Positions 15,779-20,191 of a stretch of 39,231 nt of DNA are shown here, piece by piece. The DNA lies in contig CAMDDL010000022.1 in NCBI GenBank assembly GCA_945891505.1, positions 1 through 39,231 on the forward strand, read 5' to 3'. Source of the DNA: Maricaulis salignorans (GTDB taxonomy: Bacteria > Pseudomonadota > Alphaproteobacteria > Caulobacterales > Aquidulcibacteraceae). Both the position numbers and the translations under genes were made by a program. Every line of letters starts with the position of its first letter. Within the stretch, counting starts at the first letter, position 1. The notes under the pieces are model-generated. The model did no database searches and was not told the DNA's origin. It saw only the letters and a list, made by a program, of their open reading frames with translations.

Positions 15779-17107
15779 ATGACAGACGCACTTGAAAAAA
15801 CCATTCCTAAAGTTGGTATCGTATCGCTCGGCTGCCCGAAGGCGCTGGTGGATAGCGAGCGGATTATCACGCGCTTGCGGGCCGAGGGGTATCAGATAGC
15901 CCCAGACTATAGCGGGGCGGACCTCGTGCTCGTCAACACCTGCGGCTTTCTCGATAGTGCGCGCGAAGAAAGCTTGGATGCGATTGGTGAGGCCATTGCC
16001 GAACATGGCAAGGTCATCGTCACGGGCTGCTTGGGGGCCGAGCCGGATGTGATCCGGGAGCGCCATCCCAAAGTCTTGGCGATTACCGGGCCGCAGCAAT
16101 ATGAGAGCGTCATGTCAGCGGTTCATGCGGCTCTACCGCCCAGCCATGATCCGTTCCTGGATCTGGTGCCAGAAGGCGGCGTGAAACTGACGCCGCGCCA
16201 CTACGCCTATTTGAAAATTTCTGAGGGCTGCAACAACCGCTGCTCCTTCTGCATCATCCCGAAGCTGCGCGGCGACCTCGTCTCGCGCCCGGCGGCCCAT
16301 GTGATGGCAGAGGCGGAAAAGCTGGTCGGTGCTGGCGTGAAAGAGCTTTTGGTGATCAGCCAAGACACCTCCGCCTATGGCCTCGATATTGGCTATGCCA
16401 CAAGCACCTGGAAAGACCGCGAGTATCGCGCGAAATTCTATGATTTGTGCAAGGATTTGGGCAGTTTAGGTGCTTGGGTGCGCCTGCACTATGTTTACCC
16501 CTATCCTCATGTTGATGAGGCCATCCATCTGATGGCAGAGGGTAAAATCCTGCCCTATCTGGACATTCCTTTTCAACATGCGAGCCCGCGCGTGTTGAAG
16601 GCCATGCGCCGCCCCGCCAATCAGGACAAGCAGGCCGCCCGCATTGCAAAGTGGCGGTCAGAATGCCCTGATCTTGCGATCCGCTCGACCTTTATCGTCG
16701 GCTTCCCCGGCGAGACAGAGGAAGACTTCACCCAATTGCTGGACTTCATGCGCGAAGGCCAAATCGACCGGGTTGGCTGTTTCAAATATGAGAATGTCGT
16801 CCACGCGCCTTCCCGCGACCTCGAAGGCCATGTGCCAGAGGAAGTGAAGGAAGAGCGTTGGCACCGGTTCATGGAAGTCGCGCGCGAGGTGTCTGAACAG
16901 CGGCTTGCGACTAAGATCGGCAAGGAAGTAGACGTCATTATTGATGAGGTCGATGACGAAGGCCCGATTGGCCGCACGGTTTGGGATGCACCTGAAGTGG
17001 ATGGTGCCATCGAGCTGCACGGCTTTAAGCGGGCCAAACCCGGCGATATCGTGCGGGCACGCATTGTCGATGCTGGCGATTATGATCTGGTCGGCGAAGC
17101 GATCTAG
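15779..17107 (+). CDS. rimO: Ribosomal protein S12 methylthiotransferase RimO
   Basis: 442 residues. Radical-SAM enzyme that methylthiolates the conserved aspartate of ribosomal protein S12. The N-terminal UPF0004 domain has the three auxiliary-cluster cysteines ([27 protein letters not shown]). The radical-SAM motif is CNNRCSFC in [22 protein letters not shown], and a C-terminal TRAM domain follows. [11 protein letters not shown] and [11 protein letters not shown] distinguish RimO from MiaB. It is a stand-alone gene; its stop shares a CTAG with the stop of the convergent gene at 17104. Confidence 0.96.
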
Positions 17108-17433
17108 TTTTTGGTCGCCAGCCACCAGCCGCCAAAGCTGAGGCTGAGAAGCAGCGTCAACATCACAGCTTGCTGGCTTAGGCCATACATAGCCGCGCTG
17201 GCCAAGACGGCTGTTTCGATTTCTCGTAAGCCGCTAGGTGCTAAGAACGCGATCAAGCTGAAGAAGATGACTGCTAAGGTGATCCGCGCCGCTTCGCGCC
17301 AAATCTGCTTGCGCGCGATGTCAGCTTGAACTTCCCGCATGACGCCCGCGACAAAGGCGTCGTCAGACGCGGAGTCTTTCAGAGTTGAGCCCTCATAAAA
17401 TAGGGATTTGAGAGCAAGATCGTCTTGGTTCAT
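17104..17433 (-). CDS. Small membrane protein downstream of the ECF sigma factor
   Basis: 109 residues, family not recognised. The N-terminal 45 residues are hydrophilic and acidic ([32 protein letters not shown]), followed by two hydrophobic segments (about 47-65 and 75-105). It starts inside the stop of the sigma factor (ATGA overlap at 17430-17433), so it is translationally coupled to it. That position and topology (cytosolic head, membrane anchor) are what an anti-sigma factor would have, but no known anti-sigma domain is visible; the function is inference. Its 3' end overlaps the rimO stop by four bases. Confidence 0.75.
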
Positions 17434-18047
17434 GGCTGTTTGCTTTCTGGTAGGTCGATTTTGGCCCCAAGGGCCGCGGGGCGCAAGTCCCGCATGACTT
17501 CGATTGCGCGGTCCCGCCCGCGCTGAGCATGGCTTTTGACGGTTCCAAGCGGCATGGACAGGGCTTGGGCGGCTTCGCTATGCGACAGCCCGGCCCCAAA
17601 ACATAGGGCCACGACAAGGCGTTGATCGGGGGAAAGGGCGAGGAGCACTTTGTCGAGATCAAGTTTGGCGGCTAGACCCGTTTCTTGAGAGGCGACTTGG
17701 TCTTGATCGGCCAGCCAATCATGATCGCGCTTTTGCGCGCGGGCGTGGCTGCGACGTTGGTCATGGGCGGCGTTCACAGCGATGGAAAATAGCCAACCGC
17801 GAAAGCTGCCTCCGGCTTGGTCGGCCCCGCGCCAGCGCGACAAGTTCTTCCAAGCCTTTAGAAAAGTCTCCTGTGCCAGATCATCTGCCAAGCTGGGCTC
17901 AGAGACAATCCGGCACAGGAAGCCACGAACGGCGGCTTGATGACGGCGCACCAGCTGATCAAACGCGTTGGAGGAACCCGTGCGGGCGCGTTTGACCAAG
18001 GCTTCATCAACATCGCTGATTAGCGTTTGACTGGTGTGCACTTTCAT
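17430..18047 (-). CDS. ECF-type RNA polymerase sigma factor
   Basis: 205 residues. Region 2 is visible as AFDQLVRRHQAAVRGFLCRIV, the DDLAQETFLKAWKNL motif and FRGWLFSIAVNAAHDQRR. Region 4 is LLALSPDQRLVVALCFGAGLSHSEAAQALSMPLGTVKSHAQRGR, a clear helix-turn-helix. There is no region 1.1 or 3, so it belongs to the extracytoplasmic-function group. TGAGG precedes ATG 18047. It lies 26 bases after the DUF6249 gene and overlaps the small membrane protein gene. The shared promoter motif upstream of 18466 and 18968 suggests that it activates its own operon. Confidence 0.92.
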   Translation of the reverse strand: MKVHTSQTLISDVDEALVKRARTGSSNAFDQLVRRHQAAVRGFLCRIVSEPSLADDLAQETFLKAWKNLSRWRGADQAGGSFRGWLFSIAVNAAHDQRRSHARAQKRDHDWLADQDQVASQETGLAAKLDLDKVLLALSPDQRLVVALCFGAGLSHSEAAQALSMPLGTVKSHAQRGRDRAIEVMRDLRPAALGAKIDLPESKQP

Positions 18048-18073
18048 AACCTCAGTTCGCGTTTCACCCAGTC

Positions 18074-18466
18074 TTATTGCGGTTGGGACGGGGGAGCAGG
18101 GCGACGCAAGCGCCAGCTTAGAATTTGGCCTGTACCTGTAAAGCCTACGACTATGCCAATAAGTCCGAGGATGGTACCGAAGTGTTGGTCAAAGCCATTG
18201 AGATAGGCAAGCCCGCCCGCGGCGCAAAATCCTAATCCCATCATCAAGCTCACGAGGCCCGACCGAAGGTCCATTTCTGGCGAGTTGGGCGATTTAACCA
18301 TCAACTTCAAAGTGGTTTCATCCAGTTTCTGGCCGGAGGAAATCACTTGTCGAAGCGTCTCTTGTTGGTCCGCTCTGACTTTGGCATTCATATAGAGTGT
18401 AGCCAACACACCCGTGGTAATGCACAAGAACAAGGCAATTGGGACAAGCCCTTCCATCATATTCAT
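18074..18466 (-). CDS. DUF6249-like membrane protein
   Basis: 130 residues. One N-terminal hydrophobic segment (GLVPIALFLCITTGVLATLY), then a soluble stretch with RADQQETLRQVISSGQKLDETTLKLM, then two C-terminal hydrophobic segments (LVSLMMGLGFCAAGGLAYL and TILGLIGIVVGFTGTG). The QETLRQ-x-G-x-LDE pattern between membrane segments is typical of DUF6249 proteins, which often accompany ECF sigma factors; function unknown. ATG 18466 has AAAAGGAAAAG upstream. First gene of the sigma operon, and perhaps the sensor or a regulator of the sigma factor (inference). Confidence 0.75.
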   Translation of the reverse strand: MNMMEGLVPIALFLCITTGVLATLYMNAKVRADQQETLRQVISSGQKLDETTLKLMVKSPNSPEMDLRSGLVSLMMGLGFCAAGGLAYLNGFDQHFGTILGLIGIVVGFTGTGQILSWRLRRPAPPSQPQ

Positions 18467-18503
18467 TTTCTTTTCCTTTTCTCATGTTCGGCGATGGCAA
18501 AAA

Positions 18504-18538
18504 CTAATGACGCCGCCGCATCTGATTTTGGATGCAGC
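18504..18538 (-). promoter_or_regulatory. Putative ECF promoter of the DUF6249-sigma operon
   Basis: On the minus strand, GCTGCATCCAAAA (18538-18526), 11 bases, then GGCGTC (18514-18509). The same two blocks with the same 11-base gap occur upstream of the gene at 18558-18968. This fits the -35/-10 pair of an ECF-dependent promoter; the start codon at 18466 is about 43 bases further on. A 6-bp inverted repeat TGCAGC-CAA-GCTGCA overlaps the left block (18533-18547). Confidence 0.6.
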
Positions 18539-18557
18539 CAAGCTGCATTCTTTGTGA

Positions 18558-18968
18558 CTAACGAGCAAGACGGGGCGGGGCGGGGGGCCTTTCGGTGGCA
18601 ATAACGAGCACATCATAGGTTTCCAGCCTATCGCGTACGCTCAAGGGCAGGGACAGCCACAAGGCACGATTGGCTTTTAGCGCTTTGATCTGGAAAGCTT
18701 GGCCTTCGGTAGTTGGCTTCGCTGCAAGCTGACTCAGAATAGAGCATGTCTTGGCACTAAAGGCTTGGCGGCCTTGGGGTTGGCACAGCGTATGGCGGCT
18801 GACGAGATGGGCCAGATCTTTGGCCCAGGCCATTTGCTCTGGCTTGAGTGGGGCTAGGGCCTTTTGGGGATTGGCTTTTTGCTGCGGAATGGCCGCAAAC
18901 ACAGGGCTCGCAAGCCCTAAGCTTAAGCAAATTTGGCCGGCGGCGAGGATCAGGGGGAGGGTTTTCAT
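18558..18968 (-). CDS. Secreted hypothetical protein, likely member of the ECF regulon
   Basis: 136 residues from ATG 18968, chosen because AAGGA lies upstream and the product then begins with a signal peptide (MKTLP, hydrophobic core, SPVFAA with likely cleavage near residue 25). The mature part has two cysteines (HTLCQPQG, KTCSILSQ) and a C-terminal stretch LETYDVLVIATERP; I do not recognise a family. It is transcribed toward the sigma operon but separated from it by that operon's promoter. Its own upstream region carries the same promoter-like motif, so it is probably a target of the neighbouring sigma factor. Confidence 0.7.
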   Translation of the reverse strand: MKTLPLILAAGQICLSLGLASPVFAAIPQQKANPQKALAPLKPEQMAWAKDLAHLVSRHTLCQPQGRQAFSAKTCSILSQLAAKPTTEGQAFQIKALKANRALWLSLPLSVRDRLETYDVLVIATERPPAPPRLAR

Positions 18969-18997
18969 CTTGGTATCCTTGTTGTTGGTTGGATACA

Positions 18998-19032
18998 GAT
19001 AAGACGCCACTGCTGCGGGTTTTGGATGCAGC
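18998..19032 (-). promoter_or_regulatory. Putative ECF promoter of the secreted protein gene
   Basis: On the minus strand, GCTGCATCCAAAA (19032-19020), 11 bases, then GGCGTC (19008-19003) and TTA. Sequence and spacing match the element at 18504-18538. The distance to ATG 18968 is about 35 bases. Confidence 0.6.
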
Positions 19033-19090
19033 AGTATTCCACACCCGCTGATATTTTTCGTGTTGGCAAAACTAGGCTATAGGGTTGGCT

Positions 19091-20191
19091 ATGGCTGATG
19101 ACATTTTCCCTCCCGCGACCGCGCAATCCATTTCTTCAGATGGGCTGTTGCTGGATTGTTGGTATTTTGCCGCGACCTCGGCAGAGCTGAAGGCAGGTAA
19201 ACAATTCCGTCGCATGATTTTGGGGGAGCCGATCCTCTTGGGCCGCACCGCCAAGGGTGAGGTGTTGGCCATGCGCGACGTCTGCCCGCATCGGGCGGTT
19301 CCTTTGTCGGCAGGGCGTCAAGTTGAAACCAACGGGCAAGCCACAATCGAATGCCCCTATCACGGCTGGCGCTTTGGTGGCGATGGGGTGTGCAAGTTGA
19401 TGCCATCCTTGGTCGAGGGACAGCCCTATGACCCGGCCAAGGTAAAGGTTCGTCGTTTCCCCCATGCGGAGCGCAATGGCCTCGTCTTTATCTATATCTC
19501 ATCTGACCCCCGGTTTGACGGCACGCCCGATCTGCCGCCGCCTGACTTTGGCATCAAAGCCGATCGACCCAAATTTGTCGTCAGTCGGGTATTTGAAGCC
19601 CATATGGACAATGCGGTGGTTGGCCTGATGGACCCCGCCCATGTGCCCTTTGTCCATAATCAATGGTGGTGGCGTCCGCCGTCGGTTGGGCTAAAGCTCA
19701 AAGAGAAGCAATTTGAGCCTCGACTTTACGGCTGGGCCATTGCCCGCCATGCGCCGTCGTCTAATTCTCTGGCCTATCGCCTGTTGTTCGGTGAGGGTGT
19801 GACGACCGAGATTGTCTTCATGGTGCCGGGCTTCCGCTGGGAAGTGGTCGAGAATGACAAGAGCCAGTTCTTCACGCTGACCTGCCTGACGCCGATTGAC
19901 GGCAATTCGACCCTCATTACTCAGATCAGCTATTGGACGGCCGCGCCATTGCTGGATTTGATAAAGCCGATCCTGATCCCCGCAGCCCGCGAATTCCTAG
20001 ACCAAGATGGCCGCATGGTGGACCTTCAGAATAAAGGACTGCCTTTTACAAAAGGTATGCTTTGGATTGACGATATCGACGTGCAAGCTAAGTGGTACAC
20101 CAAACTCAAGCGGGAATGGGCGCAAAGTCGGGCCGAGGGGCGGCCTTTCTCTAATCCCATACGCCCTCAAAGCTTGAAGTGGCGAAGTTGA
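19091..20191 (+). CDS. Rieske non-heme iron oxygenase (ring-hydroxylating oxygenase alpha subunit type)
   Basis: 366 residues from ATG 19091, which has AGGG six bases upstream; the in-frame TTG at 19085 is less likely. The Rieske [2Fe-2S] ligands are C65/H67 (DVCPHRAVPL) and C88/H91 (CPYHGWRF). The catalytic domain has MDNAVVGLMDPAHVPFVHNQWWW, with the aspartate and the two histidines of HVPFVH as probable mononuclear-iron ligands. This arrangement resembles the single-component VanA/pheophorbide-oxygenase-like group acting on aromatic or steroid-like compounds. No reductase or ferredoxin gene is adjacent, so electrons must come from elsewhere. Substrate unknown. Confidence 0.85.
   Translation: MADDIFPPATAQSISSDGLLLDCWYFAATSAELKAGKQFRRMILGEPILLGRTAKGEVLAMRDVCPHRAVPLSAGRQVETNGQATIECPYHGWRFGGDGVCKLMPSLVEGQPYDPAKVKVRRFPHAERNGLVFIYISSDPRFDGTPDLPPPDFGIKADRPKFVVSRVFEAHMDNAVVGLMDPAHVPFVHNQWWWRPPSVGLKLKEKQFEPRLYGWAIARHAPSSNSLAYRLLFGEGVTTEIVFMVPGFRWEVVENDKSQFFTLTCLTPIDGNSTLITQISYWTAAPLLDLIKPILIPAAREFLDQDGRMVDLQNKGLPFTKGMLWIDDIDVQAKWYTKLKREWAQSRAEGRPFSNPIRPQSLKWRS

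Follow-up and report, generated by a model that had tools for sequence, protein, structure and literature searches.

Extracytoplasmic function (ECF) sigma factors paired with a membrane anti-sigma factor are a well-known kind of regulatory unit, with a sigma factor made of regions 2 and 4, a membrane protein gene downstream, and a promoter before their own operon. A unit with these features lies on the minus strand of a 39,231-nucleotide stretch (positions 1 to 39,231 of contig CAMDDL010000022.1; here called the window) from the Maricaulis salignorans assembly GCA_945891505.1. It differs from the general pattern by a second membrane protein, of family DUF6249, encoded upstream of the sigma factor, and by the very short cytoplasmic part of the downstream (third) protein, a two-helix membrane protein. 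A gene for a small secreted protein precedes the operon. In the part of PMC7406223 available to us, the class II anti-sigma factor CnrY of the CnrH-CnrY system is likewise a short membrane protein, and the two N-terminal helices modeled for the third protein are proposed to grip the sigma factor similarly; the third protein differs in having no sequence match to a solved anti-sigma chain. The cabp-sigV region of Caulobacter vibrioides also has a small exported-protein gene immediately before an ECF sigma region, with separate promoters, but the accessible text (PMC13171946) describes an EF-hand protein and a promoter of the GGAAA/CGTTCA type, whereas the secreted protein here matched no Pfam family. 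The EcfO-Reo and Dma systems (ECF21) of Bacteroidota share a downstream anti-sigma gene and serve in envelope stress, but their anti-sigma factor, in the portions at hand of PMC13114119, PMC9308784, and PMC13088901, extends across both membranes and has a beta-barrel at its end. We rejected them as the same system because the third protein has only 109 amino acids, is helical in its model, and has no C-terminal beta-barrel. The promoter of ECF29 (RpoE8) from Sinorhizobium contains GCATCCAA, as do the promoters described below, but there, according to the available section of PMC6180224, it is the -10 element and GGGAAC is the -35 element. That assignment was rejected here, since neither GGGAAC nor GGAAC was found in the 45 bases upstream of any of the 16 sites in the host genus, and a second element follows at a fixed distance. 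Porphyromonas PG0985-87 was also rejected as a counterpart, the neighbors listed in the accessible part of PMC10434189 (also PMC3646045 and PMC9862357) being a hypothetical protein and a DUF4252 protein. In the open-access literature, no paper was found that links DUF6249 or DUF5056, the family that the third protein resembles, to sigma factors; the one paper that turned up for DUF6249 concerns bean kinases, and none turned up for DUF5056. The 2021 ECF re-classification, which lay outside that search, may already assign this gene context to one of its numbered groups. The composition, promoter, and cross-phylum conservation reported here were likewise not found described in that literature.

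An earlier reading of the window by a model (the original prediction) held that the sigma factor activates its own operon and that the secreted protein is an output or signal. The comparison given below supports an autoregulated unit, in that one promoter is shared by, and conserved before, the operon and the secreted-protein gene, and we consider it likely that the locus is such a unit with the secreted protein as a further output. The sigma factor would read one promoter class, with a -35 element TGCATCCAAA, 16 to 17 intervening bases, and a -10 element CGTC or CATC, which precedes both its own operon and the adjacent secreted-protein gene. The two-helix protein, produced directly after the sigma factor, would keep it at the membrane of the resting cell through a short conserved cytoplasmic N terminus, in the manner of CnrY, and the DUF6249 protein would join it in the membrane as a sensor or coregulator. 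An envelope signal would then free the sigma factor, raising both the operon (feedback together with a fresh brake) and the secreted protein.

The two promoter copies in the window carry the sequence GCTGCATCCAAAA-N11-GGCGTC, identical at 13 plus 6 bases and with a spacing of exactly 11 bases, and were found at the two positions as originally described, as were the layout, coordinates, and strands of the secreted-protein, DUF6249, sigma factor, and two-helix protein genes (Table 1). Of the claim that the motif lies 35 to 45 bases before the start codon, the part concerning the DUF6249 gene stands (42 bases from the end of GGCGTC to the ATG), and the secreted-protein gene falls just outside the range (34 bases). 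A chance origin had been called very unlikely, and we rejected a chance repeat on the strength of window shuffles, the genome search, the genus sites, and the counts outside the genus. With up to 3 mismatches allowed, the window held no match beyond the two, and 100 dinucleotide shuffles gave a mean of 0.03 and at most 1. In the whole genome (3,073,632 bases, 88 contigs), the exact motif occurred only at these two sites; up to 3 mismatches added one site, with 3 mismatches and on another contig, and the reversed-pattern control also gave 1. The sigma factor itself scored 60.6 bits with Sigma70_r2 and 46 bits with Sigma70_r4_2 in Pfam, the two regions expected of an ECF (group IV) sigma factor, and matched CnrH (4cxf) at 2.8e-11. 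Its stop codon overlaps the start codon of the two-helix protein gene as ATGA.

The host is a freshwater relative of Aquidulcibacter, the closest named loci being from Aquidulcibacter sp., A. paucihalophilus TH1-2, Hyphomonadaceae UKL13-1, and "Candidatus Phycosocius bacilliformis." Among nine genomes of the genus, the sigma factor was present in eight and the secreted-protein gene in eight, and the two were present or absent together in all nine, with G005 lacking both. A search of these genomes for GCATCCAA-N13-GGCGTC with up to one mismatch gave 35 matches against 5 with the reversed control. The exact pattern occurred 14 times, as two sites per genome in seven genomes, one at the secreted-protein gene and one at the operon. 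In "Ca. Phycosocius" (G002), both sites carry the same change, GGCGTT, as would be expected if one sigma factor reads both, and G005 had no exact site. Orthologous operons thus keep the motif upstream in all eight sigma-bearing genomes of the genus (one with a single base change), as the original prediction called for, and a related form is found in other families and phyla. In genome G001, the secreted-protein gene lies on a separate contig from the operon, and its promoter site accompanies it; by eye, the DNA adjoining the operon resembles an insertion element. In genome G004 (L007/L054), the secreted-protein gene has an internal stop and its promoter site is intact.

Read upstream of operons outside the genus, the first element is GCATCC(AAA) in Alphaproteobacteria, GAATCCAAAA in Verrucomicrobia, and TTGCAACC in Bacteroidota, followed after 16 to 17 bases by CGTC, CATC, CTGC, CTAC, CGAC, or CCAC. 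At 56 loci outside the genus (two genomes counted twice), GCATCC-N17-C..C was found upstream of DUF6249 at 27 in the sense orientation and at none in antisense, and 20 shuffles gave a mean of 0.95 and at most 3. Other spacings between 11 and 23 gave at most 6, apart from 14 (16 loci) and 20 (8 loci), an excess that probably comes from C..C within a G+C-rich spacer. The pattern [GA][CA]A[TA]CC with C[AG]TC was found 26 times at spacing 17, 8 times at 16, and at most once at any other, and when the genus was included, a looser scan matched 42 of 53 with a spacing of 17, 29 with 14, and 7 to 23 with the others. A comparison of sigma region 2.4 with the -10 class placed 6 of the 20 top columns at residues 86 to 96; relatedness was uncontrolled in it and two loci (L019 and L026) were probably represented by a second, tandem sigma factor, and it is not used here as evidence.

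Conservation of this kind also bears on whether the repeats instead serve a different DNA-binding regulator as operators, or a different sigma factor of the cell as promoters, this sigma operon being only one of the targets. We find that quite improbable. That this sigma factor reads the promoter is our inference from comparison, and an inverted repeat that overlaps the -35 element of the operon copy could be an operator, or else the 3' end hairpin of the secreted-gene transcript. However, the inverted repeat, with arms of 5 to 7 bp, occurs at all eight operon promoters of the genus and at none of the eight secreted-gene promoters, the element spacing is fixed at 16 to 17 bases across phyla before the operon of this very sigma factor, and the motif is absent where the sigma factor is absent, as in G005. 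The restriction of the inverted repeat to the operon suggests that the two promoters may be differently tuned.

The gene order is conserved well beyond the genus. When the 22 best loci were selected by their sigma factor from the same family or order, leaving out the genus, all 22 had DUF6249 directly upstream of the sigma factor, and 18 had the third protein downstream at a strict threshold; at a looser threshold, loci L006 to L035 had both in 30 of 30. Among 73 named sigma loci outside the genus, DUF6249 was upstream in 22, every one of which also had the third protein: 8 alphaproteobacterial (one titled only Proteobacteria), 6 from Verrucomicrobia, and 8 from Bacteroidota. The other 51 had no upstream DUF6249 at the threshold used, which indicates that the module is confined to one part of the sigma family. 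DUF6249 was confirmed by Pfam in all 10 relatives scanned. It was rare in a class-wide sample (13 of 385 genomes); of 14 control genomes, those of Caulobacter vibrioides and Bacteroides ihuae encode it. Among the 76 operons with a third gene, 33 have its start codon overlapping the stop codon of the sigma gene (ATGA, TTGA, or GTGA), a count drawn from 78 loci, some of which were picked by DUF6249 or by the promoter. That count and the one for L006 to L035 used a first DUF6249 profile that included one ABC permease (L074), the counts on the 22, 73, and 56 loci used a profile from which the permease had been removed, and the third-protein profile was built from sequences that included named loci later counted with it. 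The original prediction knew of no named system with this layout; no paper was found that names one, but the three-gene layout itself is widespread. The module is a real and uncharacterized regulatory one. At five loci (L015, L016, L017, L018, and L020), DUF6249 is immediately preceded by a frame of 26 to 27 codons for one hydrophobic helix, and at L016 to L018 and L020 the promoter lies upstream of that small frame. A second related sigma gene follows directly downstream in G024, G028, G031, G033, G035, and G036 (L021 to L024, L028, and L031), and this second sigma gene is itself preceded by another DUF6249-like gene at L029 and L031, so that the module is duplicated in tandem.

Sensor and anti-sigma roles for the two membrane proteins fit the gene order and the conserved N terminus of the third protein. 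In an alignment of 34 relatives of the third protein, only M1 and F27 were invariant, and columns common to at least 70% of them were nearly all N-terminal of the membrane part, which is preceded by about 45 residues as estimated from the alignment and model. AlphaFold placed helices, with low confidence, at residues 3 to 18, 23 to 67, 69 to 83, and 87 to 108. CnrY uses two helices to bind domains 4 and 2 of its sigma factor, according to the available part of PMC7406223. From its CnrY-like build, its conserved N terminus, and its start on the sigma stop codon, we propose that the third protein is a short membrane anti-sigma factor and the brake of the unit, with DUF6249 as sensor or coregulator. 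No domain of the class I anti-sigma (ASDI) type, of at least 50 residues, was indicated, Pfam listing no anti-sigma family for the 34 relatives. The reverse assignment is possible, with DUF6249 as the anti-sigma factor and the two-helix protein as partner or sensor, since DUF6249 is as constant in the operon as the third protein and the stretch between its membrane helices shows conservation. We judge it unlikely, given how often the third gene begins on the sigma stop codon and how the conservation of its product is concentrated at the N terminus.

Several results weigh against an autoregulated unit with a membrane brake as proposed here. On the promoter side, 29 of the 56 loci outside the genus lack the fixed GCATCC-N17-C..C form, some loci carry GAATCC or GCAACC or have a 16-base spacer, and at some, such as L134 and L135, no site was seen by eye. 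Within the genus, the remaining 19 matches carry one mismatch, against 5 controls. When 14 of these were examined, 8 lay within a frame of more than 150 codons and 2 had a frame start within 120 bases downstream (one of them counted among the 8), so that at this stringency the genus regulon seems to consist of two promoters. On the protein side, the two-helix protein scored 17.4 bits with DUF5056 (PF16479), under the cut-off of 28, its model is weak (predicted local distance difference test [pLDDT] score of 66), and a sequence search gave it no similarity to any solved anti-sigma chain. We call it DUF5056-like because 21 of its 34 aligned relatives matched that family at an E value of 0.1 or lower, the best at 1.1e-25.

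The secreted protein is genus specific as judged from 60 genomes of the family, in which the only match outside the genus was a weak one to an 804-codon frame in G025 (1.7e-4, 31% identity). Ratios of nonsynonymous to synonymous substitution (dN/dS) of 0.14 to 0.19 in four comparisons, and 0.29 against "Ca. Phycosocius," indicate purifying selection. Its model had a pLDDT of 61, and the best fold match in the PDB had an E value of 0.52. Rather than an output, the protein might belong to a signal loop in which it acts from the periplasm to give feedback to the membrane proteins. Consistent with such a loop, no other second target was found, its gene and that of the sigma factor occur or are missing together, and in Caulobacter a small periplasmic protein has been proposed to form a loop with the ECF sigma factor encoded next to it, as far as the available text of PMC13171946 goes. 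Yet outside the genus the operon occurs without the secreted protein (found in the 8 genus genomes, plus the one weak match among the 60 family genomes), and the other targets are hydrolases. We therefore hold the loop to be rather unlikely, and the secreted protein is best read as the only other output found in the genus.

Other targets of the promoter class came from pattern searches in further genomes. The exact pattern GCATCCAAA-N13-GCATCT gave 20 matches in 15 of the 61 genomes from the family of G041, with none in the control; 13 stood before DUF6249 and 7 before other genes. The latter encode a DUF5694 lipoprotein (L258, and a look-alike at L259), an Rce1-like protease, an alpha/beta hydrolase, an aspartyl protease, a lipoprotein-like protein with no Pfam match, and, 136 bases away, a putative secreted protein (L247). 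In 12 further chosen genomes, GCATCCAA-N14-GCATCT with up to one mismatch gave 42 matches against 1 in the control, with S41 peptidases (L200 and L211; L202 is below the cut-off) and two Rce1-like proteases (L192 and L212) among the targets; several one-mismatch sites within coding frames are likely due to chance. L202 and L211 (G296, contig C165) are divergent genes, one encoding an S41 peptidase and the other a weak S41 match, and have two exact sites back to back, 23 bases apart, before them. Six Verrucomicrobia genomes, searched with a pattern from their own operons, gave 11 matches against none in the controls: the six operon sites and five others, three of these exact. The CTGC-type pattern with up to 2 mismatches gave 30 matches in 10 genomes against 7 in the controls, and the 3 exact ones were operon sites. 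Most targets are, by eye, predicted exported or membrane proteins, and these together with the proteases and lipoproteins suggest that the module serves an envelope or secreted-protein response. Tentatively, and short of an even chance, the DUF6249 and DUF5056-like proteins may act jointly as a two-protein brake in the membrane, not described before, that restrains one clade of ECF sigma factors and has been kept, along with its promoter (-35 ATCC or AACC, 16 to 17 bases, C..C), across Alphaproteobacteria, Verrucomicrobia, and Bacteroidota; the system would serve to switch on secreted and membrane proteases or, for Aquidulcibacter, a single dedicated secreted protein.

These results give the DUF6249 and DUF5056-like families a specific, testable job, and the promoter sequence makes regulon prediction possible in many genomes. 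The regulon of the genus, apparently of two promoters, is small enough for complete dissection, and the recurring S41, Rce1-like, and aspartyl protease and lipoprotein targets hint at an envelope or secreted-protein response that was not found described in the literature searched.

Table 1. Features of the sigma factor unit, with positions in the window
Feature	Position	Strand	Basis
Secreted protein, 136 amino acids, two conserved cysteines	18558-18968	-	Open reading frame, Pfam, relatives
DUF6249 membrane protein, 130 amino acids	18074-18466	-	Pfam PF19762, 38.5 bits (cut-off 33)
ECF sigma factor, 205 amino acids	17430-18047	-	Sigma70_r2 and Sigma70_r4_2
DUF5056-like two-helix membrane protein, 109 amino acids	17104-17433	-	Open reading frame, alignment, model
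Promoter of the secreted-protein gene, GCTGCATCCAAAA-N11-GGCGTC	19003-19032	-	Window motif search; genus comparison
Promoter of the DUF6249-sigma-membrane protein operon, GCTGCATCCAAAA-N11-GGCGTC	18509-18538	-	Window motif search; comparison within and outside the genus
Inverted repeat ATGCAGC-TTG-GCTGCAT, overlapping the -35 element of the operon promoter	18532-18548	-	Genus comparison
Predicted leader hairpin GUAUCC...GGAUAC, covering the ribosome-binding stretch of the secreted-protein gene	18973-18996	-	RNA fold

The leader hairpin of the secreted-protein gene folded at -5.9 kcal/mol with a z score of -2.39, and 6 of 200 shuffles folded equally well; it may or may not be functionally relevant. 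Its outer pairs are, by eye, missing in some members of the genus. Divergent from the unit is a gene for a Rieske-type oxygenase (window positions 19085 to 20191, plus strand), whose best curated neighbor is 4beta-methylsterol monooxygenase, at 65.5 bits against a cut-off of 600.

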